DNA of 64,000 bases from Pseudomonadota bacterium (GTDB lineage Bacteria > Pseudomonadota > Gammaproteobacteria > Xanthomonadales > Xanthomonadaceae): assembly GCA_018242425.1 (NCBI GenBank), contig JAFEBX010000005.1:1-64000 (forward strand). Direction: 5' to 3'. Each line of letters starts with the position of its first letter. Position 1 is the stretch's first letter. The position numbers and the translations under genes are program-made. Shown here piece by piece: positions 5,383 to 59,105 of this stretch. Below the pieces are notes generated by a model. That model was not told the DNA's origin, did no database searches, and worked only from the letters and a program-made list of their open reading frames with translations.

Positions 5383-6708
5383 ATTCAGGCGGTGCGAGAT
5401 CGGCGCTGGGCGACTTCTCGCGCCACCCTGAACGCAAGCAAGTTCGCACCCGGCCTCGGGCTGGCAAGCCGGTCGGCCCGCGCCTGCGTCATGACGCGCC
5501 GCTTCGGCAAGGAGGTCGCATGGCTGCAGACGGCACCGAGCGCGCTGCGCTGCGGGTGCACCGACCGCAGCGCGAGGACGTCACGGCATAGAACCATTCC
5601 ATGCAGCATCGCCGAGGCTATGCGCTGGAATCTGTGGCCCGTCATCCGGTGTTTGCAGCCAAGCGCTCCAGCGCGTCGAGGATGGCGTTGTTCGAAGTCG
5701 GCCGCTCGTGAATGCACCCGCATGGGCAGGCAAGACCTCCAGGCGGCGGCCGCCGCTGCCTGCATCGCGGACGCCGACCCTGCCGACAGGCCAGCGCGCG
5801 TTCCAGCATTTCGTGTCGGCATAGGGCATCGTCGCGGCTCTTGCGGCCGCGAGGCATGCGTACCGCGCAAGTCCCCCAACGCTCCTCAGCGCGTTTGCGT
5901 TGTCGATCGGCGCCGTGAGACCCTCAGAATCGCGAAAGCCCCGGCCTACGGGGCTTTGCGGGACTGCTGTGGCCCGTCGTGCGGCCCATTGGCACGCCAT
6001 CTTGGCGGAGAGGGTGTCTTCCAGATCATGGGCTACAAGGCTTGTCGATACTGGGCTTCAAGGGCTGGCACTGCTGAAAAGTCCCCCAGAAAGTCCCCCG
6101 TCTTGCACACCCCAAGAAACTGGGTCGATTCCTCCCGAATGGGCAGCATTCTCCATCATCGAGAAATCGGAAGCCGTTGCATAAAGTAGACGTCGAATCT
6201 GCAATCTGCCGCGCCAGTTTGACGGCATCCAGCACCAGTACGACCTCCCCAAAAAATCTACACGCGGCTGCGATCAGCACCTCAGGTGCCATTGGCTAAA
6301 CGGGCCGGCCGTACACTAAGACGTCTTTGCCGGCAGCTTCTACCAAATCATCCGTCAGCCGAGTTGCGACGCGATTTGTCGGCGCCCTCACATTGGCTTC
6401 TGAACGCGCATCTTTGACAGTGGCTCGCATCCGCCGTGTACCGCGGAGAGATCGCCGCGTCGCCAGGCAGCTGACATTCGCTCTCGAATCGCCGGCACTA
6501 CGAACGGCAGGTAACTGCAACTACCGCGAAAGGGTGGTCCCGGCCATGAACAGACCGTCGCTGGGCACGTCTGAGTGGCCGTTCTAGACTGGCACGAGTC
6601 GTACGAATCTTCGATCTGCCTGCTCCATAGCAGTCGGTGAAGGTACAGGGATGCAGTCGGGCGCCGGGAACAAGCACCCTCGAATTGCACCATCTTCGGA
6701 CAAAGGCA
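5383..6708. other. Non-coding stretch
   Basis: I see no supportable gene in these 1.3 kb. Open frames here are Arg-, Cys- and Ala-rich, lack ribosome binding sites and resemble no family. The region holds one clear hairpin (listed separately) and sequences similar in style to the intergenic repeats at 11.98 kb and 27.7 kb. It separates the chromate locus from the IS1595 element. Confidence 0.6.
5935..5957. terminator. Terminator-like hairpin
   Basis: A perfect 9-bp inverted repeat, AAAGCCCCG and CGGGGCTTT, with a five-base loop. A-rich and T-rich ends on the two arms allow it to end transcription from either strand, although the T tract is only three bases long. No gene lies immediately before it, so it may be left over from a lost gene. 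Confidence 0.5.
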
Positions 6709-8856: not shown

Positions 8857-10696
8857 TCAAGGCTTGGGTTCGGCCAGCATGTCCTTGGGCGGCACGAACT
8901 GCCGCTTGGTGACCAGCGGCGGATAGCCGGGGTCGTCGGGCACGCGCGGCGGCAACTGGTCTTCCATCGTTTCGAACACCGAGCGGCTAGGCAGCACCAC
9001 GTTGTTGCTGCGTGCGTAGTCGTCCCACAGCGCGATCATCGCCTTCAGTTTGTCGGGCTGCGCTTTGGCGAGGTCCTTTCGCTCGCCGGAGTCGGCCTCC
9101 AGGTTGAACAACTGCCATTCGCCGTTACCCATCGGCTTGTACTCGCGGCGCACCTTCCATTCCCCTTGGCGCACGGCCTGGTTGCCGAACAGCTCCCAGG
9201 CCAGGACGTCCTGCGCAGTGCGAGGCGACTCGGCCTGACCCGCCAGCACCGCGCTCCAGGACTTGCCGATCAGCGGCGGCAACTCGCGGCCGGCCAGCGT
9301 CTTGGGATAGCGGGTGCCGGCCACTTCCAGCAGCGTCGGCATCAGGTCCGCCACATGCATCAGGCCGGCATTCAGGCTGCCCTTGGACCGCTTGACGGCA
9401 GGGCCGCTGACGATCAGCGCGTTGCGGATGCCGCCTTCGCCGAGCCAACCCTTGTACTGGCTGAAGGGCGTCATCGACACCTGCGCCCACATCGGGCCGT
9501 AGGCCACGTAGGAGCCCGGGTCGCCCCAGGCATTGGGGTGCGTCTGCGACCAAATTTGGCGCGGCGAACAGGTAGTCGCTGGTGCCCGGCGTGCCGGCGA
9601 TCATCTTGAACAGGTCGGTGCCCTCGGCGCCGTTGTCGCCGAAGACGATGAAGATCGTGTTGTCGTATTCGCCGATCTTCTTCAGGTGCTCGATCAGGCG
9701 GCCGACATGGTGGTCCATGTTCTCCACCATGCCGGCGTACATCTCCATCTTCTTGCCGAGCAGGGCGCGCGGCGCCGGCGCCAGCAGCGTCGGGTCGGGG
9801 ATGAACCACATGCGCTCGGCCAGCTGCGTGCCTGGTGGCATGATGCCCATCTCGATCTGCCGCTTCAGCCGCGCCTGCCTTATCGCATCCCAGCCGACGT
9901 CGTACTCGCCGACATGGCGGTTGCGCCAGTCCTTCGGCAGGTGGTACGGGTCGTGCGGCGCTTGGTGCGAGACGTAGGCGAAGAAGGGCTTGCCGCTGCC
10001 GCGGTTGGCGTCGATGTAGCCGATCAGCTTGTCGGTGTAGGTCTTCGTGGCGTAGTAGTCGTCGGGCAGCTTGGTCAGGTAGCGGCCGTCTTCGGTGAAC
10101 ACCGACTTCGGCGACGCCGAGGTGAAGTTGGTCATGTCCCAGTAGCTGCCGGCACCGTCGAGCAGCGTGAAGTCGCGCTCGAAGCCGCGCGCCCGCGGAA
10201 TCTGCTCGGGCGCCTTGCCCAGGTGCCACTTGCCGACCATGTAGGTGTGGTAGCCCGCGTCCTTGAGCAACTGCGGCAGCGTGGCGACACGGTCGTTGAG
10301 GTAGCCCTCGTAGCCGAGCAGGCCGCGCTGGTTGGGCGCCGTCCACTCGTCCATGTTGCCCAGACCGTTGAGGTGCGTGTCGACGCCGCTGAGCAGCATC
10401 GAGCGCGTCGGCGAGCAGCTGGCGTGGGTGTAGAAGTTGGTGAAGCGCACGCCCGACTGGGCCAACGAGTCGAGGTTCGGCGTGCGGATCTCGCTGCCGA
10501 ACGTGCCCATGTCGGCGAAGCCCATGTCGTCGGCGAGGATGACGACGATGTTCGGACGACGCGCTGGGTCGGCCGCGGCGGCAATGGCGGGCGCGAGCAA
10601 CGCGGCGATGGCGAGGCCAGCGACACCGATTCGCCGATTTGGTTGGCCCGCGCTCGTGTACATGGCGGAAAGCAGTCGCCGCAGAATGGTTTTCAT
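8857..10696 (-). pseudogene. Arylsulfatase, frameshifted
   Basis: A secreted sulfatase of about 610 residues when the frames are joined. The N-terminal part has a signal peptide (residues about 20-42), metal-binding DD at 56-57 (ILADDMGFAD) and the formylglycine site CSPTRS with Cys94, plus HLGK and FGDNGAEG further on. The frame breaks near 9550-9560: FAA is followed by nonsense, while QTHPNAWGDPGSYVAYGPM continues one frame away. The rest (GEGGIRNALIVSGP, ADLMPTLLEVAG, NGEWQLFNLEAD) is normal sulfatase sequence to the stop at 8857. One extra base explains the break. Real inactivation and a sequencing error are both possible. Activity would also need a formylglycine-generating enzyme, not seen here. 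Confidence 0.88.
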
Positions 10697-12251: not shown

Positions 12252-12791
12252 TCACCGGCCTACCTTCTCGCAGTCTCTCGCGAACGCACACCGCTGACAC
12301 ACCTGCACCGAATCTGCGTAGCGCGGCGCCATCCGCCCCGAGACAATCGCTTCGCGACGTGCCGCAAGCTCGTTCACTTCGGATATCGCCATCAATCGCA
12401 CTCGATGAAGGACTTGCGTCACGTTGCCGGGGCGCTGGACAGCAACGTAGGCGTGATGCGCAACGATCTCCCCGGTTTGCAGTTCGACCGCGGCACGCTG
12501 CGCCGACAATTCAACGACGTCGGAAGGGAAGACGCGATTTCGATCCCGGGTCTTGAGTTCCAGCAGGACAACCGTGCCCGACGCCACTCGATAGGCACGG
12601 TCGACCCTTGCAGTGATTGCCGTCTTGCCGGTTGACCGGAACAACTGCTCGGCGTAAACCAACCGCGCGCCGCGCAGCTCTCGAGGCAAGACCAGGCGTG
12701 CAGATGCGATCCCGGGACGTCGTGACCAGAGAACGCCGACGATGACGCACAGCGTCACCAACAATGCGGTGAGAAGCGCGCTACCGAACAT
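12252..12791 (-). CDS. Membrane-anchored Cas4/RecB-like nuclease core, C-terminal part of a split protein
   Basis: A 179-residue protein. An N-terminal membrane helix (residues about 3-22, LLTALLVTLCVIVGVLW) precedes a PD-(D/E)XK nuclease core: the Asp in VDRAYR, the E-x-K in VLLELKTRDRN and the Gln in ELSAQRAAVE. It ends with CQRCAFARDC, three cysteines spaced like the C-terminal iron-sulfur ligands of Cas4 and AddB. The fourth, N-terminal cysteine expected of that fold is absent here but present in the upstream gene (12781-13242). The start ATG at 12791 overlaps that gene's stop by 11 bases. Last gene of the ParM operon. Fold assignment is from motif spacing; function is unknown. Confidence 0.62.
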   Translation of the reverse strand: MFGSALLTALLVTLCVIVGVLWSRRPGIASARLVLPRELRGARLVYAEQLFRSTGKTAITARVDRAYRVASGTVVLLELKTRDRNRVFPSDVVELSAQRAAVELQTGEIVAHHAYVAVQRPGNVTQVLHRVRLMAISEVNELAARREAIVSGRMAPRYADSVQVCQRCAFARDCEKVGR

Positions 12792-13242
12792 GCCGGCGCT
12801 GCTCCCACTCGAGCCACCGCGCCGCGATGCCCACGACCCCGCGCAGCATGCAACGCACGACGGGTTGGAGGTTGGGCCAGCGCTCCAGCAAGCGGCACAC
12901 GGCAGGCGCCATCCGGTAGTACAGGACAATCAAGCGACGCCCCATCTGCCTCGGCCGCAAGACGCGATCCCTGAACCACCTCAACACCCGGGTCTCTCGG
13001 GCCTGGCCAAACACCAGCGTCGCAACGAAGCACCGGCCGGCCGATTGCCCGCCGCCGTGCCGATCCCGGTAGAACCGCTGATGGGCTCGGCGGCCGCGCT
13101 CCATGGTCAGCAACTGCTCGGCAGTCCTTCGCCTGCCGCAGTCGTGCTCGAACTTCACCAAGCGCTCGCATACTCCCATCTGCGCCAGTTCGGATGCGCT
13201 CACGCCGAGCGCGTAGCGGCGCCGGTGCTTCCTGGCGGCCAC
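12781..13242 (-). CDS. Cas4-like N-terminal half, partner of the downstream nuclease
   Basis: A 153-residue basic protein. Residues about 14-60 contain SASELAQMGVCERLVKFEH and then RGRRAHQRF. This is the layout seen at the start of Cas4/RecB-family nucleases, where a lone Cys supplies the first iron-sulfur ligand and an RG..H helix follows. The nuclease Asp, E-x-K and the other cysteines are missing and lie in the next gene. The C-terminal part has hydrophobic stretches (LIVLYYRMAPAVCRLLERW and CMLRGVVGIAARWLEW) that may contact the membrane. It begins nine bases after the 95-residue gene. I infer that the two proteins assemble into one nuclease. Alternatively it is an unrelated small ICE protein. 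Confidence 0.55.
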   Translation of the reverse strand: MAARKHRRRYALGVSASELAQMGVCERLVKFEHDCGRRRTAEQLLTMERGRRAHQRFYRDRHGGGQSAGRCFVATLVFGQARETRVLRWFRDRVLRPRQMGRRLIVLYYRMAPAVCRLLERWPNLQPVVRCMLRGVVGIAARWLEWEQRRHVR

Positions 13243-13251
13243 GGCCTCACC

Positions 13252-13539
13252 CTATTCGGCCAGCGGTCGCGCGAACGACTGGTTCGTCAAGGACGGTTCG
13301 CCCAGGTTCAGCTCGCCCGGCCCATCGCCAGCCGATTGGGCCACGGTCGGCGGCGCAGCAGCCGGGATCAGCATCCAGCTCTGCGCCAGCAACCCCTCGT
13401 GCGCCAGAAACCGTAGACGGTTGATGCGCTTCGTGCCCTTGTTGAAGCGCATCAAGTCGTCGTAGAGGCGCGGATTGTCGTCCCGCGATAGTTCGAACAG
13501 CATGCTCACCGGACCCGGATCCTTGCCAACCGCGTTCAT
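13252..13539 (-). CDS. Small protein in ParM operon, candidate ParR-like adaptor
   Basis: Predicted 95 residues. The N-terminal half is charged and helical (LFELSRDDNPRLYDDLMRFN and KGTKRINRLRFLAHEGLL), the C-terminal half is Pro- and Gly-rich and likely disordered. I recognise no family. Its ATG overlaps the ParM stop by four bases. Actin-like segregation proteins usually work with a small DNA-binding adaptor encoded next door, so a ParR-like role is a reasonable guess, but no ribbon-helix-helix pattern is clear. Confidence 0.6.
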   Translation of the reverse strand: MNAVGKDPGPVSMLFELSRDDNPRLYDDLMRFNKGTKRINRLRFLAHEGLLAQSWMLIPAAAPPTVAQSAGDGPGELNLGEPSLTNQSFARPLAE

Positions 13540-14582
13540 GCGCCCTCTCCTTCCTGCGGTGCGACCCGCCCGACGCCGCCGGGCGGCTGCGCGAGACTGC
13601 GCGCGTAGTTCATGCCCGCAATCTGGAAGCCGCGCACGTTGGCGTACATCGGCTCCTGCATTTCCGCGATCCGGTGTTTCGGAAACGCCTGCTTGACCGC
13701 GTTCTTGAACAGGAACGCGCCGCCGCCCACCAGGATGATGTTCTGGAAGCTGTAGTCGGCCGGGATGCTCTCCAGCATCGCCCCCACCGCGCGCTGCGCG
13801 ACCGAATGGGCGATGGGCATCAGCTTGGCCAGGTCGTAGGCCTTCTGGTAGACCCTCAGGCGCTGGCCGGTGCGCAGCGCCCGGTCGATGGCATCGAGAT
13901 CGGTGTATGGCGTGCCGATGTCGGTGCCGATGTCGCTGGCGATCGAGCGCAGCACATGCGACACACCGCGGGTTACCGAATCGCTGGCCTTCAGCACCAG
14001 CCGCATGCCCCGGGCGGCCAGCCAGTCGAAGGTACGCGCGCCGGGGTCGATGATCAGGCTTTGCTCATGCTCGATCGTCGCCATCTTCTGGTGCGTCGCC
14101 GCGTAGTACACCAGCGCACCCTGCGGCTGCGCCAGGGCCAGGGTCTTGTGCACGGTCACGGCCTTGCCACCGCCGATATCGTGCGTGCCGGTGGCCACCC
14201 TTTCCAGCGCGGCCTTCTTGGCCACGAAGTGCGACACCGGCAAGCCGACCACCAACACATCGATGACCGGCAGCTTCATCATCGCCAGCGCACCGCGCAG
14301 CAGCGCCAGGTATTCCGGTGTTTCGACGTAGCGGTCGTGCAGATGGGTGGCGCGCAGGTTGTCGGTGGCCAGAGCTGCGTCCGGCCCGACTTCGTAGAAC
14401 AGGCCGTTGATCGGAATCGCCAGGGTCTTGCGGCGTTCGGCCGCCGGCAAGCTTGCCGGGTCGCGTGTGCTCGGGTAGGCGAGCGAGGGAATGCAGCCGC
14501 AGCGCACCTCGCTGCCGGCCATCCCGGTGATGAACTTGGTGTTGCCGAAGCCGAGATCCACCGCTCTGACGATCGGTTCCAT
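13536..14582 (-). CDS. ParM/StbA-like actin-fold segregation protein
   Basis: A 348-residue actin-like ATPase. The phosphate-1 motif is VDLGFGNTKF near the N-terminus. The phosphate-2 region is SLIIDPGARTFDWLAARGMR and the adenosine motif is NIILVGGGAFLFKNAVKQAF. It resembles plasmid ParM/StbA and the protein called PRTRC_D, but no ThiF or ParB genes typical of the PRTRC cassette are beside it. The start at 14582 has a strong AAGGAGGG. It is the first gene of a four-gene leftward operon and is divergent from the integrase. It probably helps keep the excised ICE in dividing cells. Confidence 0.85.
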   Translation of the reverse strand: MEPIVRAVDLGFGNTKFITGMAGSEVRCGCIPSLAYPSTRDPASLPAAERRKTLAIPINGLFYEVGPDAALATDNLRATHLHDRYVETPEYLALLRGALAMMKLPVIDVLVVGLPVSHFVAKKAALERVATGTHDIGGGKAVTVHKTLALAQPQGALVYYAATHQKMATIEHEQSLIIDPGARTFDWLAARGMRLVLKASDSVTRGVSHVLRSIASDIGTDIGTPYTDLDAIDRALRTGQRLRVYQKAYDLAKLMPIAHSVAQRAVGAMLESIPADYSFQNIILVGGGAFLFKNAVKQAFPKHRIAEMQEPMYANVRGFQIAGMNYARSLAQPPGGVGRVAPQEGEGA

Positions 14583-15045
14583 CGAGTTGCCCTCCTTGCT
14601 GGGTTGCAGTCCGGCCAGCTTCGGCGCCGGCGGCCACACCGTCCACGCTGAAGCACTCGCGCAAACACCGGCTTTCGCGATCAGGTCCGAATGCATCGCC
14701 GCTGTAGCTCGTCGTCATCCATCTGCAGCGGGACTCAGGTGCTGGTCGTCAAAGTGGTCTGCGCGTCGCACCACATTCGCACCCGCGCGGGCTCTGTCAA
14801 GGACGCGGATCGCAGTCACCCCAACGGGGAGCCTCGGCGCTCGCGCGATCGGAGTCAGAGGTATGAGCAGAGCTTGTCAACCCTTGCGCTGCGGCCCGTT
14901 TTCGAACTCACGGCGTGCTTGTCGGCACTTTTTGAGCTTGAAGTCGGCGCCGCGCTAGCGCATGATTCGAACGCGTCAAGCCGGGAGCTACCAGCCCGCG
15001 CGCATCGAGCGCCAAAGGAAGCCCGCCTGAGACAGTCGAAGAGCC

Positions 15046-15061: not shown

Positions 15062-15535
15062 GCGAGCCCCGAGCTCGAGATCCACGACGGACCCCGATCC
15101 GTCCCCTTGCCACCATGCGCCCTCGAGGCCATGGCGCGCGCCGCGCCTTCTGGTGTGGCGCCAGTGTCCCCATAGCGATTTCGCGTCATGCGCTGCCATC
15201 ACTTCGGTGATGGCGACCCGCAGCGCGTCGGCTCGACCGACCGCCACGGGACCTGCATGAACGGGCCGCACACCGCGTTGGCTGCGGTGTAGCCAGTCGG
15301 CCCGGCGAAAGCGTTCGATTTCGGCACCCTGGAGGTGCCGCGTGCAGGTGACGCCCGCACACCTTGCCGCGCGCGCCATCCGGTTCATCCGGGTGGCGTT
15401 GCGGTTCGCCCCGAGCGAACAGCCACGCGTGTACGCACCGTGTGCAAGGCGATCACTTTTACGACGGCCAAGGCCACTGCCCTCATGGGCGACGGCCGAC
15501 GCATTGGCAAACGCGCGTGGGGACGCGCCAGACCT

Positions 15536-15560
15536 CGACAGCCCCGGCCCCGGGCTGTCG
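15536..15560. terminator. Strong hairpin before the integrase
   Basis: Perfect 9-bp arms CGACAGCCC and GGGCTGTCG around a seven-base loop, 55 bases before the integrase start. There is no T tract after it. It may lie in the integrase leader as an attenuator, or insulate the integrase from upstream transcription. Confidence 0.4.
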
Positions 15561-15615
15561 TTCCGGGGTTCAGGGGGCCAGTCGATTCACGACACGTTCA
15601 ACGACAGAGGCTCAC

Positions 15616-16713
15616 ATGTCCGATCCAGACCCCCTCACCGTCGATCTCGACACCCTGCCCTTGATGCCGCAGCGCTGGATGTACGTGCTGTCGCTGATCC
15701 TGCGCCGGCACAACTGGCAGCATGCTGCCAAGGCCAAGAGCGTCAGTCACCGCACCAACGAGGCGCGCGCGCGTCTGTGCATCTGGGTGTTTCGCTTCCT
15801 GCGCGACAACCCGGTCAAGACCTTCAAGCTCGATCCACGCTCCTTCAGCGGCCGCCATGTCGATCTGCTGATGGCGCATTGGCAATCGCAGGCCAAGGCG
15901 GGCCGGCTGGCACCGAGCACCATTCCCACCTACTACTCGCACCTCAAGACCTTCACCCGCTGGATCGGCAAGCCTGAGCTGCTCAAGCCGATCTCGGCGT
16001 ACTTCGACGATCCGGCGCTGTACACACGCAACTACTGCGCGAGCGAGGACAAGTCCTGGCGCGCGATGGGTGTGGACGTCTTCACGGTGATCCGCGACGT
16101 CGAGGCCCACGACGTGCACGCCGCGGCCTGTCTGTGGCTGATGGTCGCCTTCGGCCTGCGCTTCAAGGAAAGCCTGATGCTGCGCCCACATGCGGATGTG
16201 GCCACGCCCGACCAGGCGGCACAAGCCGGCACCTCGGCGGATCAGGCCAACGGCCCGGTGGTTGACTACCTGGACACCCACCGCGGCACCAAGGGCGGGC
16301 GGCGGCGCTACCTCCCGATCGACGACGAGTTGCGCCGTCATGCCGTCGACTATGCGCGCCATGTGTGCAAGGGACCCCATGCCAGCGTGAGCGACCAGAC
16401 GCTGACGCTCGTGCAGGCGATGCGCCGGCTGCGCTACGTGATGGAGCGCTTCGGCATCACCAAGCGCGATCTGCACGTCGTCCCTCATGGGTTGCGTCAC
16501 CAGTTCGCTGGCCGTGGCTACGCGCTGAACACCGGAGTACTGCCGCCGGTGGCGGGTGGGCCCGTCGTCGACGCGGCATTGGACGCACGCGCTCGCGACA
16601 CGATCTCGCAGCAGCTCGGGCATGGGCGCCGCCAAATCGTTAATGCGTATTTGGGTCGGCGGCAGATCGACAAGCCAGCCGGGGCGGCCGATCGCGATCA
16701 CCGACTGCTCTAA
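15616..16713 (+). CDS. int: ICE-type tyrosine integrase
   Basis: A 365-residue site-specific recombinase. The N-terminal core-binding domain (residues about 15-110, including FRFLRDNPVKTFKLDPRSF) is followed by a catalytic domain that has the first Arg in LWLMVAFGLRFKESLML, the Lys region GTKGGRRRYLPI, the HGLRHQFA box (His-x-x-Arg) and the terminal QLGHGRRQIVNAYLG, where Tyr is the nucleophile. This two-domain layout matches integrases of proteobacterial ICEs rather than classical phage. The ATG at 15616 follows GAGG. It catalyses insertion and excision at an attachment site, probably close to one end of the gene. The selenouridine synthase gene begins about 175 bases downstream. Confidence 0.88.
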   Translation: MSDPDPLTVDLDTLPLMPQRWMYVLSLILRRHNWQHAAKAKSVSHRTNEARARLCIWVFRFLRDNPVKTFKLDPRSFSGRHVDLLMAHWQSQAKAGRLAPSTIPTYYSHLKTFTRWIGKPELLKPISAYFDDPALYTRNYCASEDKSWRAMGVDVFTVIRDVEAHDVHAAACLWLMVAFGLRFKESLMLRPHADVATPDQAAQAGTSADQANGPVVDYLDTHRGTKGGRRRYLPIDDELRRHAVDYARHVCKGPHASVSDQTLTLVQAMRRLRYVMERFGITKRDLHVVPHGLRHQFAGRGYALNTGVLPPVAGGPVVDAALDARARDTISQQLGHGRRQIVNAYLGRRQIDKPAGAADRDHRLL

Positions 16714-49761: not shown

Positions 49762-50635
49762 CCCGCGCGCCGGTCTTCCAGGCGCCATCGACCCCTTCGG
49801 GCGCCGGCGCCTGGCCGTGACAGCGCTGCTCGCCCTCGCCGCCGCAGGGCAGCCGGCGCAGGCGCTGCAGGTGGTCGACGCGCGCGATGGCGTGGCCGTC
49901 GAAGCCATCGTGTCGATCAAGGAGCCCACCCGCATCCGCATCGACGGCGCGCCGATCACCGACGTGTTCGGCAACATCCACTCGAGCAACTGCGCGGCGG
50001 CCCCTGGCGCAGCGGCCGCCCCCGCAGCCGGCATCGTGGCTGCGGCAGTCAACCCGGGCGGCGAGATCCTGCTGGAGTGCGACCGCGACAAGGGCGAGAT
50101 CTACATCCGCCCCGTGGGCGACTCCCCCAAGCCGGTCAATCTCTTCATCTCGTCGGCGCTGGCCACCTACACCCTGGTGCTGCGCCGCGCGGACACGCCG
50201 GCCGACACGATCGTCATCCGTGACCGGACTCAACGGCAGCTGCCTGCTGGCGGCGCGGCGGCGCAGGGATCCGGGGTTCCCGGTCCTCTCGGACCGTCCG
50301 CCAACCACATCCGCGCCATGAAGGCGATGCTGGTGGCGATGGCCTCGGACCGGGTGCCCGCCGACATCCGGGTCGACGAGATCAACCAGCCGATGCAGCT
50401 CTGGGCCGAGGCCCGCTTTGCGCTGCTGCGCCGCTACGAGGGTCGCGGCCTGCTGGGCGAGAAATACCTGCTGCACAACATCAGCCAGGCCTTGATGGTT
50501 CTGGCCGAGCAGGAGTTCGACCGGCCGGACAGCAGGACCGGTGGCCAGGTGATCGGCGTGGCGGTGGAGAACCACCAGCTGCGCCCGGGCGAGAGCACGA
50601 ACGTGTTCGTGATCCGGCGCGGGGGCGAACGATGA
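49748..50635 (+). CDS. traK: Conjugation protein TraK (secretin-like core component)
   Basis: A 295-residue exported protein equivalent to VirB9. A signal region (RRRLAVTALLALAAAGQPAQ) is followed by beta-rich sequence with VVDARDGVAVEAIVSIKEPT and PTRIRIDGAPITDVFGN. The C-terminal half resembles TraK partners of TraB and TraV, which together make the outer-membrane core ring. The stop overlaps the traB start by four bases. Confidence 0.9.
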   Translation: MRPGNPRAGLPGAIDPFGRRRLAVTALLALAAAGQPAQALQVVDARDGVAVEAIVSIKEPTRIRIDGAPITDVFGNIHSSNCAAAPGAAAAPAAGIVAAAVNPGGEILLECDRDKGEIYIRPVGDSPKPVNLFISSALATYTLVLRRADTPADTIVIRDRTQRQLPAGGAAAQGSGVPGPLGPSANHIRAMKAMLVAMASDRVPADIRVDEINQPMQLWAEARFALLRRYEGRGLLGEKYLLHNISQALMVLAEQEFDRPDSRTGGQVIGVAVENHQLRPGESTNVFVIRRGGER

Positions 50636-52017
50636 ACGCACCGCTCGCAAGCCCGGCGGCTTCGGTCAGGAACCTGCTCGAACGCCTTTCGCCAAGGCAG
50701 CGCCAGTTCGTGATGCTCGGCGCGATCCTGCTCGGTGGTGTCGGCCTGCTGTGGCTGATCTTCGCCGCTTCCGAGGACGGCGCGAAGGGCCGGCACGCCA
50801 AGGCGCCCACGGGAGCGCCGGGCACCGTCACGAACATCGGCGTGATGCCGCCGGGGCAGCAGGTCAACCCGCTGGACCAGTGGGTCGGCACCGCCGGCAG
50901 CAAGCTGGCCCAGTACGAGAACGAGCGCGAGGAACAGGGCCGGCTGAACAGGGACCGCCAGGGTTTCGAGGCGCGCACGATGCAGCGCTTCGCGGAGCTG
51001 GAGCAGCGGCTGAGCGCAGCGGCACAGGCGGCGCAGGTTCAGGCGCCGCCACCCCTGTCCGCACCCCCCGCGGCACCTGCCCCGATGCCGCCGGCGGCCA
51101 GCCTACCCTTGCCCCCTCCCCCCTCGGCGGCAGGCCGCGCGACCGCGGCGGGTGCCATGCCGCCGGGACCACCCGGCATGCCGATGGCGATGTCGAACCC
51201 CGACCCGGCGCCGCCGGTGCTGAGCCGCGTGACCATGGTCGACCGCTCCGCTGCACCTGCCGCGCCCGGCACAGCGCCGGCCGTGGCCAACCCGTCGGCC
51301 GAGGCGCGCACCGTCTCGACCTTCCTGCCCGTCAGTTTCACCCGCGGCACCCTGCTCGGCGGGCTGGATGCGCCCACCGGCGGGCAGTCGCAGTCGAACC
51401 CGCACCCGGTGCTGATCCGCCTGTCCGACAACTCGGTGCTGCCCAACCGCTTCCGCGGCGAATACCTCGACTGTTTCGTGATCGCCGCCGGCTACGGCGA
51501 CATCAGCGCCGAGCGCGCCTACCTGCGCACCGAGAACCTGTCCTGTGTGCGCGCCGACGGCATGGCGCTGGAAGTAAAGATCCAGGGCAGCGTCTACGGC
51601 GAGGACGGCAAGGTGGGCATGCGCGGCCGGCTCGTCACCAAGCAGGGCCAGATGCTCGCCAATGCGCTGCTGGCCGGCGTGGTCAGTGGCATCGGCCAGG
51701 GCCTGGCCATGTCTTCGACGACCTACAGCACCTCGGCGTTGGGCACCGTCGCATCGGCCTCCGGCACGGATGCCTTCGTCGCCGGGATGGGCACGGGTGT
51801 CAGCAAGGCCCTGGACCGGCTCGCGCAGTACTACATCAAGCTGGCCGAGAACACCTTCCCAGTGATCGAGGTCGATGCCGGCCGCGAGATCGACGTCGTC
51901 ATCACCAAGGGCGTGCGCATCGACGTGCCGATGGCGGCCCAGGCCGGCCGCAGCGACCGGTCAGATATGGCACCTGCCCACCGCTACCCGGAGGCTTCCG
52001 ACGATGACACCTACTGA
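50632..52017 (+). CDS. traB: Conjugation protein TraB (VirB10-like)
   Basis: A 461-residue protein of the VirB10/TrbI family. One membrane helix ([20 protein letters not shown], residues about 25-45) precedes a coiled-coil and a Pro/Ala-rich spacer (residues about 130-200) that spans the periplasm. The beta-barrel domain has [17 protein letters not shown] and [17 protein letters not shown], typical of the family, and an antenna-like hydrophobic region ([17 protein letters not shown]). It links inner and outer membranes of the channel. Its end overlaps the DsbC-like gene. Confidence 0.93.
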
Positions 52018-52834
52018 ATGCGTGCTCCGCCGTCGGCAGCGCCGATGCTTCGTGGCCTTGCTCTGCACCGCCGTCGCCGTCGGCCTCGTCGCGGCCCAGG
52101 CAGGGGCCGCGACACCGGATGAGGCCCGGCTACTGGCGGTGCTGAAGAAGGCCCATCCCGGCACCCAGTTCAGCCAGGTTCTGCGTTCGCCGCTGGAGGG
52201 CGTGTACGAAGTCTGGATGAACGGCAACGTGGCCTACGTGTCGGCCCGCAACCCACGCTACTTCATCTTCGGGCGGGTGTTCGACACGCAGACGCTGCGC
52301 GACCTGACCGCACCGAAGCTCGCGCTCGCCGCGCAGGCGTCAGGCCAAGGGGCGGCCCGAGACGGCGGCGCGGGCCCGTCCGCTGACGCCGTGGCGCCGG
52401 TGGCCTTCGATGACCTTCCCTTCGCCGATGCCCTGAAGACGGTGCGTGGCAGCGGGCAGCGGCGAATGGCGGTTTTCAGCGACCCGGGATGCGCCTACTG
52501 CCGGCGCCTGGAGAGCGAACTGGCGGGCCTGGAGGACGTCACGATCTACACCTTCCTGCTGCCGTTCCAGGGGCAGGCCCGTCCCATGGCGATCTGGTGT
52601 GCCACCGACCGCGAGCAGGCCTGGCAGCGATTCATGCTGCATGGCGATGCGACGCTGCTGAACCCGGCATCGAGCTGCGATCACCCGCTGGAGCGCAACC
52701 TGGCGCTGGCCCAACGCATGGGCGTGCAGGGCACGCCAACGCTGCTGTGGGCCGACGGGTCGCGCACCGAGGGCTACGTCGAGCGCAGCGTGCTCGAGGC
52801 GCGCCTGAAGCACGTGGCGGGGACGCGGCCATGA
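52004..52834 (+). CDS. DsbC-like disulfide isomerase of the transfer operon
   Basis: A 276-residue exported protein. The signal region is [20 protein letters not shown]. An N-terminal dimerisation part resembles DsbC ([20 protein letters not shown]), and the thioredoxin domain has the active site [14 protein letters not shown] and the cis-Pro segment [13 protein letters not shown]. It sorts disulfide bonds in Cys-rich transfer proteins such as TraU and TraN. It lies at the place where F-type systems often carry trbB or dsbC, between traB and traV, with overlaps on both sides. Confidence 0.9.
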
Positions 52835-53514
52835 ACACAACGCCATCCCTGGCCCAACGCGCCTGCCTGGCCGGCAGCCTGATGGTCCTGGCCGGCTGCA
52901 CGAGCCTGTCGGGGCTCGACGGCAGCTCGAGTCTGTCCTGCAAGGCACCCGACGGCGTCACCTGCGACTCGGTGTCGGGCGTCTATGCCAACGCGGTGCG
53001 GAACAACCTGCCGAGCCAGCGCAGCGGCACCGCGACGCCCACGGACGGCAAGGCCAGCGCGGCCGCCAGCGCCCCACCGGCGGCGACCTTCGCATCGGCA
53101 CCCGCGCAGAGCGGCGTGCCCTCGCGCCCATCCGCGCCGCCGGCAGCCACCGCATCGGCCATGCCGCTGCGCTCGTCGGCGCGCATCCTGCGCCTGTGGT
53201 TCAAACCCTGGGAGGATGCCGATCGCGACCTCTATGACCAGGGCTACGTGTACGTGCAGATCGACGGCGGCCAGTGGCTGATCGAGCACGCCCAGCGCCA
53301 GATCCGCGAAGCCTATGCGCCGCTGCGCCCGCCGCCGCGCAGCGCCGCACCCGGATCCGCATCCGCATCCGGATCCGCGAACGAGCCGAAGGAGGCCTTC
53401 GGGGCTCGTCCCCCGGTGAAGGGCCCTGCCCGCCTGCCGTCCGGCGGGGATCTGCTGCCCGGCCTGGTGCCCCCCGCCAGCCGTCCTGACAGCCGTACTG
53501 ACAGCACCGACTGA
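52831..53514 (+). CDS. traV: Conjugation lipoprotein TraV
   Basis: A 227-residue lipoprotein. The lipobox is LMVLAGC (lipidated Cys about residue 24). Two further Cys in [20 protein letters not shown] are typical of TraV. The middle is Pro/Ala-rich and the tail carries a short SASASGS repeat from a GGATCC/GCATCC hexamer array. It anchors the outer-membrane core ring formed with TraK and TraB. The ATG overlaps the previous stop by four bases. Confidence 0.88.
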
Positions 53515-53524
53515 GGAGTCTGCG

Positions 53525-56119
53525 ATGCCCTGGTTCCACCCCGCCTCGGCGCTCGCGTCGCCACAAGCGGCTCGCCGCACGTGGCCCGCGCTGGGCCAGA
53601 CGATGGACTCGCCGGCCGAGCAGTTCGCCGCCTGGCTGCCCTACAGCGCCTACCTGGCCGACGAGAGGCTGTTCGTCAATCGCGACAGCCTGGGTTTCAT
53701 GTTGGAGGTGATGCCCCAGTCCGGCGCCGACGAGCGCATGGCCGAGGTGCTGATCTCGCTGTATTCGACCTGCCCACCCGGCACCGGCATTCAGTTCCAC
53801 CTGTTCGCATCGCCGCACGTGCGCGAGCAGCTGCGCCGCTACGCCAACCTGCGCGTCGAGGACACCGACCAGGCCGACAAGGCCAGGCATTGGGGTCGGC
53901 CGGCGCGCAACGACAACCTGTTCCACCGACTGGCGCGACAGCGCGTCGGCCATCTGCTCAAGGGTGCGCAGGAGTCGCTGACGGCAGGCTTCCACTACAC
54001 GATCCGCGACTTCAGGCTGATGATGAGCGTGGCGCTGCCCGGCGGCGTGGCCGAAGCCGGCGACCTGAACCGGCGCGACGAACTGATGGCCCTGCGCGAA
54101 TCGATGTCCTCGACGCTGCGCTCGGCCTCGCTGCCCAACCGGATCTGCGACGCCGCGGACCTGATCAACTGGTGTGCCCTCTTCACCAATCCCGACCGCA
54201 TCTCGCCGAACAGCGGGCCGGGCGACGCGCCCGAGCTGCAGCCCATCCACTACGACAGCGGCCGCGAGATCCGCGACCAGATCGTCGGTTTCGACACCAT
54301 CCAGGATCCGCATCCGGGCGGCCTGAGGCTGTGGAAGGACAGCGGCGAACACATGCTGGAGGCGCGCTTCTACTCGATCAAGTCCTTCCCGGAGCGCTTC
54401 GCGCTTTGGCAGATGGGCTCGCTGATCGGCGACCTGATGCAGCCGGCGCTGCAGTACAGCGCACCCTTCCTGCTGACGATGGGCGTGCACGTGCTCGACC
54501 CGAACGTCATGAAGTCGGTGGTCACCGCCAACCACGTGCGCGCGACGCAGAACGCGCGCAGCAAGATGGCCGAGGTGATGCCGGACGTGGGCAAGAAGCT
54601 GCAGGACTGGACGGCCGCGGCCAATGCCATCGACGTCGGCAGCAACCTGGTCAGCCTGTACCACCAGCTCGCCATCTTCTCGCCGGTGCACAAGGCCGTG
54701 GCCGCGCAGCAGACGGCCAACGCGATCTGGCGCGGCCGCGGCTTCCAGCTCAACGCCGACGTCTACATGCACCGCCAGGCCCTGCTGGCCAGCCTGCCGA
54801 TGACGCTGTCGCAAGCCTTTCACAAGGACCTGGCCAAGATGCGACGGGTCTCGCGCAAGACGATGGCCAATGCCATCCACCTGGCGCCGCTGATCGCCGA
54901 GTGGCGCGGCACGCGCACACCGGCGCTGGTGTTCGGCGGCCGGCGCGGCCAGCTGATGACGCTGGACATCTTCGACAACGACCTGGGCAACTACAACTTC
55001 GCCATCATCGGCGCGCCCGGCTCGGGCAAGTCGGTGCTGATGAACGAGATGGCCTGGTCCTACCGCGCCATCGACGCCAAGGTCTGGATGCTCGACCTGG
55101 GGCGCTCGTTCGAGAAGCTGTGCCGCAAGGCCAAGGGCACCTACATCGAGTTCAGGCCCGATGTGGACATCTGCCTGAACCCGTTCACGCACATCGTCGA
55201 CATCAACGAGGACATCGACATGCTGGTGCCGGCCATCTCGAAGATGGCCTCGATGTCGCGCCCGCTGGACGAGGTCCAGTACAAGGCCATCTCGGCGATG
55301 GTGCTCAAGCTGTTCAAGGTCCACGGCAACGACCTGACCATCACCGCGCTGCGCGACGCCTTCAAGGCCGGGACCATCGACGAGCTCGGCGCGGTCAACG
55401 ATGCGCGCATCAAGGACCTGGCCATCATGCTGAACCCCTATGCCCTGGGTGGCCAGTACGAGCGCTTTTTCGAGGGCCGCAACAACGTCGATTTCAGCAA
55501 CGACTTCGTCGTCATCGAGAACGAGGAGCTGAAGCGCCGGCCCGACCTGCACGCGGTGGTCAACATCCTGCTGCTGCACCAGATCACCGGCGAGATGTAC
55601 CTGACGCGCAACCGGCGCAAGGTGCTGTTCATCGACGAGCTCAAGCAGCAGCTCGGCGACATCGGCGCAGACGACCCGGTCAAGGCCGCGGTGGTCGAGG
55701 AGGCGGCGCGGCGCGCGCGCAAGTACGGCGGGTCCCTCGGCACGGCCACACAGAGTGCCGACGACTACTACGGCTCGGCGCAGATGGAGGCCGCCTTCAA
55801 CTGCTCGGACTGGGTCTTCCTGCTGCGCCAGAAGCCCGAGTCGATCGAGATGCTCGACCGTAAGGGACGGCTGTCGATGGACGAGCCGAAGAAGCGGCTG
55901 CTGAACTCGCTGCGCACCGAGCCGGGCGTGTTTTCCGAAGTCTACATCTCCTCGCCCGTGGGCGAAGGGGTGGCGCGCAACATCCTCGATCCGGCCACGC
56001 ACCTGCTGTTTTCCAACAAGTTGGAGGACAACGCGCCGATCGACGAACTGCGCGCGCAGGGCCTGGGCATCGACGAGGCCATCGCCGAACTGCTGCGGCG
56101 GCGGGGGCATGCGACATGA
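53525..56119 (+). CDS. traC: Conjugation ATPase TraC
   Basis: An 864-residue VirB4-type ATPase. The N-terminal half (TraC_F-like, with PYSAYLADERLFVNRDSLGF) binds the membrane complex. The C-terminal half has Walker A IIGAPGSGKSVLMNEM near residue 496 and Walker B KVLFIDELKQQLGDI near 702. It powers pilus assembly at the inner membrane. It is the longest gene of the operon and its stop overlaps trbI by four bases. Confidence 0.95.
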   Translation: MPWFHPASALASPQAARRTWPALGQTMDSPAEQFAAWLPYSAYLADERLFVNRDSLGFMLEVMPQSGADERMAEVLISLYSTCPPGTGIQFHLFASPHVREQLRRYANLRVEDTDQADKARHWGRPARNDNLFHRLARQRVGHLLKGAQESLTAGFHYTIRDFRLMMSVALPGGVAEAGDLNRRDELMALRESMSSTLRSASLPNRICDAADLINWCALFTNPDRISPNSGPGDAPELQPIHYDSGREIRDQIVGFDTIQDPHPGGLRLWKDSGEHMLEARFYSIKSFPERFALWQMGSLIGDLMQPALQYSAPFLLTMGVHVLDPNVMKSVVTANHVRATQNARSKMAEVMPDVGKKLQDWTAAANAIDVGSNLVSLYHQLAIFSPVHKAVAAQQTANAIWRGRGFQLNADVYMHRQALLASLPMTLSQAFHKDLAKMRRVSRKTMANAIHLAPLIAEWRGTRTPALVFGGRRGQLMTLDIFDNDLGNYNFAIIGAPGSGKSVLMNEMAWSYRAIDAKVWMLDLGRSFEKLCRKAKGTYIEFRPDVDICLNPFTHIVDINEDIDMLVPAISKMASMSRPLDEVQYKAISAMVLKLFKVHGNDLTITALRDAFKAGTIDELGAVNDARIKDLAIMLNPYALGGQYERFFEGRNNVDFSNDFVVIENEELKRRPDLHAVVNILLLHQITGEMYLTRNRRKVLFIDELKQQLGDIGADDPVKAAVVEEAARRARKYGGSLGTATQSADDYYGSAQMEAAFNCSDWVFLLRQKPESIEMLDRKGRLSMDEPKKRLLNSLRTEPGVFSEVYISSPVGEGVARNILDPATHLLFSNKLEDNAPIDELRAQGLGIDEAIAELLRRRGHAT

Positions 56120-56472
56120 AGGCGCTTCTCGCCCATGCCGCGCTCGCACTGGCGATCATGGGCGGGTCGCTGGCCGTCTATGACCGGATGGTGGTCCGGC
56201 CGGGCCAGTTGCTCGGCGTGGTCGATGTCGGCGAGGTCTACCGGCAGAAGGAGGCCCAGTTCACGCTGATCCTGACCCAGGCAGCGTCGGAAGGTGAACG
56301 CGAGAAGGCCTTTGCCCTGGCACGTGCGTTCTCCCAGCGTCTGCCGCTGGCCCTGGAAGAGCTGCCTCGCGATTGCGGCTGCCTGGTGGTGCTGAGGAGC
56401 GCCGTGGCCGGCATGACGCCGCGTACCGTGGACCTGACGGCCCTGCTGCGCCGCAAGGTGGAGGCGCCGTGA
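56116..56472 (+). CDS. trbI: Conjugation protein TrbI (F-type)
   Basis: A 118-residue protein with an N-terminal membrane helix (LLAHAALALAIMGGSLAVYD) and a periplasmic part resembling F-type TrbI (QLLGVVDVGEVYRQKEAQFT). In F, TrbI affects pilus outgrowth and retraction. Its place between traC and the peptidase gene matches F-type gene order. Confidence 0.8.
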   Translation: MKALLAHAALALAIMGGSLAVYDRMVVRPGQLLGVVDVGEVYRQKEAQFTLILTQAASEGEREKAFALARAFSQRLPLALEELPRDCGCLVVLRSAVAGMTPRTVDLTALLRRKVEAP

Positions 56473-56530
56473 GCGCGCCGAGCCGCTCCCAAGCGCTCAT
56501 CCCGGAGCGCACAGCGCGCAGGGTAGTCCA

Positions 56531-57082
56531 ATGAACACGACGCTCTCCCGCTTCGCGGCCCAGTTCGCCGACTTCCTGGGGCACATGCGCCTGCGCTGGG
56601 TTCTCTACGTGCCGGTGTTCGCCGTCTGGGGCTTTGCCTACACGCGCCTGTTCATCGATCCGACCCCGCGGGTGCCGGTGTTGTTCAACTGGACGCCGAG
56701 CCTGCCCTACGTCGTCGCCCTGGTGCAGTACGGATCGCACCCGCTGCAGCGCGGCGACTACATCGTCTTTGCATTCGCCGGCGAGGCGCGCGTCGCCTAT
56801 CCGGGCCTGGACGCTCAGCCGTTCTTCAAGATCGTGCGTGGCCTGCCCGGCGACACGGTGACGGTGTCGGGGCGCACGGTGGCCGTCAACGGCCAGGTCG
56901 TCGGCACCGCCAAGACCCATGCCTTCGACCGACGGCCGCTCGAACCCATTGCGCCCACGGTGATCCCGCCCGGCCACTACTACGTGCAGGGCATGAGCGC
57001 CGACTCCTTCGACTCGCGCTACCGCGCCAGCGGCCTGGTGCGCGCCGAGCAGGTGCTGGGCACGGTCCTGCCGCTGTTCTGA
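56531..57082 (+). CDS. TraF-type S26 signal peptidase of the transfer operon
   Basis: A 183-residue inner-membrane peptidase. One membrane helix (VLYVPVFAVWGFAYTRLF) is followed by the S26 boxes: Ser in LVQYGSHPLQRGDYIVFAF, Lys in PFFKIVRGLPGDTVTV, and GHYYVQGMSADSFDSRY. TraF-type peptidases process the conjugative pilin or other exported transfer proteins. About 58 bases separate it from trbI, the largest gap within this part of the operon. Confidence 0.9.
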   Translation: MNTTLSRFAAQFADFLGHMRLRWVLYVPVFAVWGFAYTRLFIDPTPRVPVLFNWTPSLPYVVALVQYGSHPLQRGDYIVFAFAGEARVAYPGLDAQPFFKIVRGLPGDTVTVSGRTVAVNGQVVGTAKTHAFDRRPLEPIAPTVIPPGHYYVQGMSADSFDSRYRASGLVRAEQVLGTVLPLF

Positions 57083-57091
57083 GGCAGCGTG

Positions 57092-57460
57092 ATGCAGACC
57101 CACAAGATGTGCAATGCAGCCTGGGCGCTAACCAGCGGCATGGTGATCGCAGTGGCGTCGGCCAGCGCGGCGCCTGCCAGCGCGCCGCCCATCGCGGCCG
57201 ACGACATGCCGATGGCCGACTACCTGGGATTGCTGGCCCGGATCGCGCCTGCCGCCGAGGAAGGCGCCAGGCATTACCTACTTGCCTTCCAGCACCGCTG
57301 CGGCCGACCGCTGGCCACGGCCGATCTGCGGCGGGCAATGTCCGACGGGGACGGCGATCCGGTGCTGATGGCGATGATCCGGGCGAGCCATCTGCGCGAC
57401 ACGGCCGCGCTGACCCGGCTTGGCCCAAGTGTGGCCTGTGAACGGCGGGCTGCGCGATGA
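57092..57460 (+). CDS. Small exported hypothetical protein in the transfer operon
   Basis: A 122-residue protein with a signal peptide (LTSGMVIAVASASAAPASA) and a helical mature part with two Cys (YLLAFQHRCGRPLATADLRR, GPSVACERR) that could be joined by a disulfide. I do not recognise a family. The start is ATG at 57092 (GTG at 57089 adjacent). Its stop overlaps the traW start by four bases. Confidence 0.7.
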   Translation: MQTHKMCNAAWALTSGMVIAVASASAAPASAPPIAADDMPMADYLGLLARIAPAAEEGARHYLLAFQHRCGRPLATADLRRAMSDGDGDPVLMAMIRASHLRDTAALTRLGPSVACERRAAR

Positions 57461-58086
57461 AGCAGATGATCGGCTGCTGCATCGCCCTGGGCCTGGCCTG
57501 GCCCACGATCGGCGTGCGCGCCGCAGACCTCGGCACGCTGGGCCCGACCTACGACATCACCGAACCCCACCTGCTGAGCTTCATCGAACAGCGGCTGCGC
57601 GACAAGGAACGCAGCGGCGAGCTGCAGCGCCTGGTGCAGCAGGCGCAGGCCCGCGGCGTCGAATCGGTCCAGCGTCCGGCACCGGTGGCCGGCCTGCGCA
57701 CCACCCGGACCGAGCGCACCTTCTACGTCGATCCGAGCTTCACGCTCGAGCGCAACATCGTCGACGGCCAGGGCCGACTGCTGTTCCCGGCCGGCACGCG
57801 CAAGAACCCGCTCGAGGTGGTGTCGCTGTCGAAGCGGCTGCTGTTCTTCGACGCGCGGGACCGCCGGCAGGTGGCGCAGGCCCGTGAACTGATCACCCGC
57901 TACGACGGCAAGGTCAAGCCCATCCTCACCGGCGGCTCGTACCTGGAGCTGATGAAGGCCTGGCGCGTGCCGGTGTACTACGACCAGCAGGGCACGCTGA
58001 CACGTCGTTTCGGGATCGAGCAGGTGCCGGCGCTGGTGTCGCAGGAAGGCCTGCGGCTGCGCATCGACGAGGTGGCGCTGCCATGA
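57457..58086 (+). CDS. traW: Conjugation protein TraW
   Basis: A 209-residue periplasmic protein with a signal peptide (MIGCCIALGLAWPTIGVRA). TraW marks are LGTLGPTYDITEPHLLSFIE, RTERTFYVDPSFTLERNI and LLFFDARDRRQVAQA, ending with RFGIEQVPALVSQEGLRLRI. TraW works with TraU and TrbC in F-pilus assembly and mating-pair stabilisation. It overlaps both neighbours by four bases. Confidence 0.93.
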   Translation: MKQMIGCCIALGLAWPTIGVRAADLGTLGPTYDITEPHLLSFIEQRLRDKERSGELQRLVQQAQARGVESVQRPAPVAGLRTTRTERTFYVDPSFTLERNIVDGQGRLLFPAGTRKNPLEVVSLSKRLLFFDARDRRQVAQARELITRYDGKVKPILTGGSYLELMKAWRVPVYYDQQGTLTRRFGIEQVPALVSQEGLRLRIDEVALP

Positions 58087-59105
58087 CGCTCGTGCCGCAC
58101 CTGCGTGCCGCCGTGCTGCTGCTGGGCCTGTGCCTCGCAGCGTCGGCGGCGCGCGCCGCCGACAGCTTGACCTGCACCGGACGCTTCCCCAACCCGATCA
58201 CCGAGATCTGCTGGAGCTGCATCCTGCCGATCAGCATCGGCAGCACGTCGATTGCCAACATCGGCGGCCAGGAGGACATCGCCAACCCCTCCAGCCCGGT
58301 GTGCAGTTGCGGCGTCAACCCGACGGTCGGGCTGTCCATCGGCTTCTGGGAGCCGGCACGCCATGTGGAGGCCGTGCGCAAGCCCTTCTGCCTGGCCTCG
58401 CTGGGCGGCATCGATCTCGACCCAGGCATCCCGGCGCCGGCGGGCGCACGCTTCACGCGCGCCGAAGGCGATGGTGACGGTGGCAGCTTCTACCAGGCGC
58501 ACTTCTACGTGAATCCGGTCCTGTACTGGCTGGAGGTGGTGACCGACTTCCCCTGCCTGGAGCGCGGCTCCTTCGACCTGGCCTATCTGACCGAAGTCGA
58601 CCCGCTGTGGAACGACGACGAACTGACGCTGATCCTCAACCCCGAGGCCGTGCTCTTCGCCAACCCGGTCGCAGTGGCCGCCTGCGCCGCCGACTGCGTG
58701 GCCGCGACCGCGGGTTTCGGCTTCGCCGAGATGTTCTGGTGCGCCGGCTGCCAGGGCGGCATCTATCCGCTCGACGGCCACGTGCCGTACCACATGGGCG
58801 GCGTGCGCACCGCCGCGCTGCTCGCCCAGCGCCTGACCGCCAAGATGCACCGCGAACTGCTGGCCTGGGGCTGGCATGGCAGGGCGGGCCTCTGCGGCCC
58901 GTACTTCCTGCCGGCCATGGACAAGACCGCCTACAAGACGCAGCTTACCTACCCTGTCGCCAACACCGTGAAGGATGCCGGGCGCTGCTGCCAGCCTTTC
59001 GGCCGCAGCACGATCGTCTGGGGCGCCGGCAAGGAGTACCCGGTGCGCGGCGAGGACTTCGCCTTCATGTTGTTCCGCAAGAGGAACTGCTGTGTGGGCT
59101 ACTGA
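58083..59105 (+). CDS. traU: Conjugation protein TraU
   Basis: A 340-residue exported Cys-rich protein. The signal peptide (AVLLLGLCLAASAARA) is followed by CTGRFPNPITEICWSCILPI and ISIGSTSIANIGGQEDI, hallmarks of TraU. At least a dozen Cys lie in the mature part, which explains the disulfide isomerase in the operon. TraU is needed for DNA transfer and mating-pair formation. Confidence 0.95.
   Translation: MTLVPHLRAAVLLLGLCLAASAARAADSLTCTGRFPNPITEICWSCILPISIGSTSIANIGGQEDIANPSSPVCSCGVNPTVGLSIGFWEPARHVEAVRKPFCLASLGGIDLDPGIPAPAGARFTRAEGDGDGGSFYQAHFYVNPVLYWLEVVTDFPCLERGSFDLAYLTEVDPLWNDDELTLILNPEAVLFANPVAVAACAADCVAATAGFGFAEMFWCAGCQGGIYPLDGHVPYHMGGVRTAALLAQRLTAKMHRELLAWGWHGRAGLCGPYFLPAMDKTAYKTQLTYPVANTVKDAGRCCQPFGRSTIVWGAGKEYPVRGEDFAFMLFRKRNCCVGY

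Follow-up and report, generated by a model that had tools for sequence, protein, structure and literature searches.

In iron-staple nucleases such as AddB, AdnA/AdnB, Dna2 and EXO5, a cluster is formed by one N-terminal and three C-terminal cysteines around a RecB-like core, and in Cas4 and AddB this cluster staples the two ends of the domain together. To our knowledge, none of these enzymes is both split between its His and its Asp and anchored in a membrane. In the Cas4 protein SSO0001 the cluster is held by C32, C188, C191 and C197 and the metal by H62, D99 and E113, and in Pcal_0546 the corresponding ligands are C64, C200, C203 and C209 for the cluster and H94, D123 and E136 for the metal (PMC4176176). 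Cas4 enzymes cut single-stranded DNA (PMC3466216, PMC4176176).

The locus considered here lies in a window of 64,000 nucleotides, by which the whole stretch of DNA analysed is meant, and comprises two genes, termed N-half and C-half in the following. A reading made from the sequence alone had proposed a Cas4-like nuclease that is split over these two genes and bears a membrane helix on the second, a proposal now supported by sequence, profile and comparative evidence. We consider it likely, with a probability of about 0.7, that the two genes encode subunits of one membrane iron-staple nuclease of the Cas4/AddB/EXO5 class, which serves conjugative elements. With Cas4 (DUF83; SSO0001, Pcal_0546 and the type I-C Cas4 of Cas4-Cas1-Cas2), the pair has in common the order and spacing of Cys, His, Asp, E-x-K and C-x2-C-x5-C as well as the RecB-like fold of the C-half. 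Unlike Cas4, it consists of two polypeptides, includes a membrane helix, carries a CFI box at the break and is not accompanied by cas genes. AddB, AdnA/AdnB, Dna2 and EXO5 were matched to the family of the pair by PDB profile and by fold, but these enzymes are single chains, several of them with helicase domains.

The two genes and their products

Four close genes run along the minus strand of the window and form an apparent operon. The first is a ParM-type actin-like gene (13536-14696), whose product scores as PRTRC system protein D (TIGR03739, 448 bits) and also matches ALP_N (93 bits); the actin-like gene previously read in the operon is thus borne out as a parM gene upstream of the pair. 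It overlaps by 4 bases with a small conserved gene of 95 aa (13252-13539), which occurs at the equivalent position in the metagenome-assembled loci L002, L003 and L004 and in Piscinibacter, and whose product matched no family. A gap of 9 bases leads to the N-half gene (13242-12781, GTG start, 153 aa), which in turn overlaps the C-half gene (12791-12252, ATG start, 179 aa) by 11 bases at 12781-12791, where the minus-strand sequence ATGTTCGGTAG holds the stop of the former and the start of the latter. Both this overlap and the coordinates had been given exactly in the sequence-only reading. A tyrosine recombinase gene on the plus strand (15364-16713; PF12835, 35.7 bits) diverges from parM, and a promoter scan found no sigma-70-like site. 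Elsewhere in the window, a sulfatase-like reading frame on the minus strand (8857-10696) is distributed over two frames (8857-9507 and 9125-10696) and has the look of a frameshift or a pseudogene.

The C-half opens with a hydrophobic helix at residues 3-21 (mean Kyte-Doolittle 2.5), continues with a PD-(D/E)XK core comprising D64 and E78-L-K80, the latter motif being D-x-K in some relatives, and ends with the Cys tail C165-x2-C168-x5-C174. The membrane helix, the Asp, the E-x-K and the three C-terminal Cys assigned earlier to the downstream gene are therefore all present, but its Gln had been misassigned, since Q98 occupies the Tyr position of the QhXXY motif. This motif is degenerate in the window protein, where it reads E94-L-S-A-Q98, so that activity could be reduced; relatives have QLSVY (pRA1, pMRCP2) or QISIY. 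Family matches of the C-half to PDDEXK_1 and Cas4 are both weak, and its score with TIGR00372, the Cas4 equivalog of CRISPR adaptation, is 19.4 bits, below the curated cut-off of 65.

The N-half carries a lone Cys (C25) and the G-x3-His motif G50-R-R-A-H54, in agreement with the lone N-terminal Cys and RG..H helix first noted in the upstream gene; the same description, correct as to the Cys and His, had overlooked a CFI-box-CTERM domain that ends the protein (aa 71-137; NCBIfam NF041770, 66.2 bits, E=1.6e-18, cut-off 40). The likeness to CFI-box-CTERM proteins lies in this C-terminal domain, which passes the curated cut-off. The usual CFI proteins seen here differ in being long and in having their own hydrophobic helix after the box, a helix that in the present case belongs to the next gene. 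Among CFI-box proteins outside the pair (L036-L063, long and unrelated), 24 of 28 have a hydrophobic segment directly after the box, which suggests that the CFI box is a juxtamembrane domain elsewhere. No mention of the CFI box was found in the literature searched, and the N-half/CFI profile had no match among PDB sequences. At the metagenome-assembled locus L004 (L004:5502-5914), N-half and CFI box lie in different frames, owing to either a frameshift or an assembly error.

Correspondence with Cas4 and joint conservation of the halves

For residue pairs located on one chain, the spacings in the window equal those of Cas4 within one residue. The Cys-to-His distance is 29 (C25-H54), compared with 30 in SSO0001 and Pcal_0546, the Asp-to-Glu distance is 14 (D64-E78), compared with 14 and 13, respectively, and the C-x2-C-x5-C spacing of the tail is identical in the C-half, SSO0001 (188/191/197) and Pcal_0546 (200/203/209). 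All four cluster Cys, the single N-terminal one and the C-terminal three, are supplied by the pair and by neither chain alone.

Comparison on the level of the family was based on 21 tabulated pairs, namely those of the window, the metagenome-assembled loci L002 and L003, the genome G346, plasmids of Piscinibacter, Methylophaga (two), Dyella, Rhodanobacter, Xanthomonas (two), Burkholderia, Acidovorax and Aeromonas, further plasmids of Pseudomonas silesiensis, Thioalkalivibrio, Marinobacter and Vibrio, and finally pMRCP2 (P. alcaligenes), pRA1 (IncA) and pVAS19. When aligned with a reference alignment of 12 Cas4 proteins from other genomes, a profile of the 21 N-halves matched columns 3-49 only, with a score of 27.0, compared with a mean of 10.2 (SD 2.0, maximum 22.1) for 300 column permutations. 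The C-half profile aligned with columns 69-187 (score 87.5), and the concatenation of both was collinear with columns 3-187 at a score of 105.0, the maximum of 100 nulls with permuted N-part being 89.3. In a single-sequence HMM test, the concatenated halves were no better than shuffles, and the score of P0001 against Cas4 stayed within about 2 SD of them; since this test was not significant, it is the family profile that carries the case for N-half homology. A PDB profile search with the C-halves returned AdnA/AdnB, SSO0001 and EXO5 at weak E-values.

For structure modelling with AlphaFold2, both halves were joined into one chain by reading through the overlap (code TAGC=S), and this fusion was folded in two runs with 7 and 8 alignment rows. 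The core of the C-half reached a pLDDT of about 75-93. In both fusion runs, with their alignments of 7-8 rows, pLDDT remained below 50 for the N-half and for the greater part of its CFI box, so that the AlphaFold2 models demonstrate no joint core and assembly of the pair is inferred from sequence. Foldseek matched the C-half model to MGME1 (E 1.8e-5) and SSO0001 (3.9e-5), and its fold matches comprised MGME1, Cas4, EXO5, AdnAB and AddB; VIA Z values lay at 9-11, reaching 11.4 among MGME1, Cas4, EXO5 and AdnAB. Some structural alignments to EXO5 and Dna2 start at model residue 53-56, in the His helix and thus in the region of pLDDT below 50, so that this is no more than a hint of a joint fold.

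Conservation of the two halves appears to be coupled. The Cys and the GxxxH motif are kept in 21 of 21 N-halves, and a tail of three ligands is present in 20 of the 21 partner C-halves, 18 of them with CxxCx5C and two with the IncA/C-type CxCx4H; the C-half of G346 has two tail Cys only. At 22 of the 24 nuclease loci examined, the N-half is found on the same element. In Comamonas (L076) no N-half was found on the sequence record of the nuclease, and in the genome G311 the nuclease is directly preceded by a remnant, ISATALADF, that lacks the Cys; in both cases the nuclease ends before the Cys tail. Such a loss would follow from a single site formed jointly by the first Cys and the tail; the two cases are suggestive of tail loss tracking the loss of the N-half but are too few for statistical proof. 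The expectation that homologues of the two halves do not occur without each other is consequently borne out at 22 loci and fails at the two without an intact N-half, which are also without the tail. Moreover, the distance matrices of the subunits correlate (r=0.71, p=0.0002, n=21), a correlation that co-inheritance would explain as well.

Several N-halves lack the CFI box. The one encoded on pMRCP2 measures 70 aa, and the nuclease that goes with it has no membrane helix. The N-halves of pRA1 (L009:526-813) and pVAS19 (L077:2161-2451), assigned by motif and profile, are proteins of 95 and 96 aa with the same Cys and GxxxH, followed by a C-terminal hydrophobic helix, and their genes lie directly after mobI, an essential transfer gene (PMC3915882). 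By position, between mobI (vcrx001) and repA (vcrx003), the pRA1 gene corresponds to vcrx002, which appears in the literature searched as a map label only (PMC3915882). It was spotted first by motif and then by profile: among 210 ORFs it came out on top (E=2.5e-5) with a profile from which IncA/C members had been left out, and a profile including pRA1 found N-halves on the Aeromonas plasmid NZ_CP124842 (E=3e-9) and on pVAS19 (E=9e-9), both outside the training set. Across 397 other proteobacterial genomes, the N-half profile reached at best an E-value of 1.35e-3. The IncA/C-type nuclease genes (L009:5884-6405 on pRA1, L007:5938-6468, and L077:6001-6522 on pVAS19) have the tail C-x-C-x4-H instead of C-x2-C-x5-C and thus possibly a different metal site. 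The products of vcrx002 (WP_000213810, pRA1) and of the hypothetical gene for WP_012766290 are proposed to be N-half and C-half of the same enzyme, although they differ from the window pair in the distance of about 5 kb between their genes, in the helix replacing the CFI box and in the CxCx4H tail. The IncA/C-type N-half was found in 1093 plasmid records and the IncA/C-type nuclease in 1159.

These data bear on the strongest alternative, in which the C-half needs no partner, being by itself a complete membrane-anchored PD-(D/E)XK nuclease, and the CFI-box protein is an unrelated operon neighbour. Pfam and NCBIfam see nuclease features in the C-half only, the confident AlphaFold2 fold is likewise confined to it, and two elements have the nuclease without an intact N-half. 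We nevertheless regard this alternative as unlikely, because the first Cys and the His are absent from the C-half in all members and present upstream throughout the family with Cas4-like spacing, because both nucleases without an N-half have lost the tail, and because pRA1, pVAS19 and pMRCP2 retain an N-half that has no CFI box and is encoded apart from the nuclease gene.

Membrane association, gene neighbourhood and host element

An N-terminal hydrophobic helix is present in 20 of 21 C-halves, with pMRCP2 as the exception. Where the CFI box is absent, the N-half has a helix of its own, as on pRA1 and pVAS19, or, as on pMRCP2, the two halves both look soluble. The CFI box may hence attach the N-half to the membrane, perhaps via the helix of its partner. 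Ordinary CFI proteins, on the other hand, seem to carry the box outside, before the membrane helix, a location that has no obvious fit with a cytoplasmic N-half, which lacks a signal peptide.

Across the family, the pair is accompanied by genes for MobI, ParM, S49 or M48 peptidases, DsbA and a fused MFS/spermidine synthase; the last of these is found immediately before the pair in Marinobacter, Vibrio and G346 (L070:2547-3962, L071:2545-3984 and L035:66-1499). ParM and N-half genes lie no more than a few genes apart in the window, in L002-L004, Piscinibacter, Dyella, Rhodanobacter and Xanthomonas and on pVAS19. This proximity, the position of the IncA/C N-half next to mobI and the degenerate QhXXY motif of the window protein would all suit a non-catalytic, DNA- or cluster-binding membrane tether of two subunits, connecting, for example, oriT or a ParM filament to the membrane. 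D64, the E/D-x-K motif and the His of the N-half, however, show little or no variation across the family, and a tether appears slightly less probable still than a self-sufficient C-half.

The contig that includes the window measures 70,338 bases and encodes the F-type T4SS proteins TraB, TraC, TraN and TraG at 50.6-67.7 kb, with the genes for TraB/TrbI, TraC and TraN (PF03743, PF11130, PF06986) on the plus strand at 50632-62204 and the TraG gene (PF07916) at contig positions 64929-67709, past the end of the window. A tyrosine integrase gene, P4-like by inspection (contig 68151-69371), and a tRNA-Ser(CGA) gene (contig 69547-69637) follow. The 3' end of the tRNA gene (contig 69547-69558) recurs as a 12-base direct repeat at window positions 6003-6014, where the G+C content falls from 0.70 to 0.62. 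The host element is therefore probably an integrative and conjugative element (ICE) of about 63.5 kb in tRNA-Ser, which contains the cassette and has the two repeat copies as its likely attachment sites, although the 12-base match is weak by itself.

No Cas1 (PF01867) was matched in the host genome, and the loci examined all have conjugation, partition or protease genes around them, with cas genes next to none. A role in CRISPR adaptation is therefore unlikely, and it is highly improbable that the pair is a captured CRISPR Cas4, whether one taking part in spacer acquisition or one interfering with it, even if Cas4 is the closest named family. In addition, we know of no precedent for membrane anchoring in CRISPR adaptation complexes.

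The pair genes overlap or abut at most loci, but one gene lies between the halves in Dyella, Rhodanobacter, Xanthomonas and Thioalkalivibrio, the halves are divergent on pMRCP2, and distances of about 5 kb on pRA1 and 3.5 kb on pVAS19 separate them. That a one-base shift would join the overlapping genes of the window could indicate that one membrane-anchored Cas4-like gene has been interrupted here by a frameshift or a sequencing error. This reading is ruled out by the same gene break in 17 other CFI-type loci, by this variable gene order and by the absence of a fused form from the loci examined. The search for fused homologues suggested in the sequence-only reading returned, in 369 genomes of the class, only ordinary Cas4 and long CFI-box proteins; viral contigs scanned for both halves contained no relatives, and PHROGs gave no match. 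The arrangement had been called unusual, as if an oddity of one element, and turns out to be a trait of the whole family across the 21 tabulated pairs. The putative two-gene Cas4-like nuclease is, as judged from sequence, widespread across proteobacterial conjugative elements and was previously unrecognised.

Proposed mechanism and implications

In the favoured reading of one membrane iron-staple nuclease made of two subunits, the N-half would give the first cluster Cys and the metal-binding His, and the C-half the active-site Asp, Glu and Lys together with the three other cluster ligands. These parts are seen in the sequence; the complete enzyme would exist as the assembled pair only, with the cluster stapling the two chains together. 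The N-terminal helix of the C-half would serve as its anchor in the inner membrane, leaving the nuclease on the cytoplasmic side, and the N-half would be kept at the membrane by the CFI box, which may bind the helix of the C-half, or by its own helix in IncA/C. By this means, the split would make activity hinge on both subunits meeting at the membrane. The enzyme is proposed to serve conjugative elements with F-type or related transfer systems. Since the DNA that conjugation sends through the membrane is single-stranded and such DNA is cut by Cas4 enzymes, the first candidate role is the processing of transferred DNA. Most likely, though with somewhat less than even odds, the metal-dependent nuclease would act at the membrane while an element is transferred or becomes established, and there trim or clear single-stranded DNA; a distinctly less favoured alternative is that it excludes or degrades competing DNA at the membrane.

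About 1,100 plasmid records of the IncA/C group, a multidrug-resistance group, carry both proposed halves, annotated as hypothetical proteins. More tentatively, elements from ICEs to clinical IncA/C plasmids might share an obligate two-protein, membrane-tethered and spatially gated nuclease, whose active site and cluster would be completed only by the meeting of the halves at the membrane, with the CFI box as a dedicated adaptor for the helix of the partner, and which would act on DNA that enters or leaves by the transfer channel. If this is true, the meeting of the halves only at the membrane would constitute a new way to confine DNA-cutting activity, and the CFI-box domain would gain its first functional handle.
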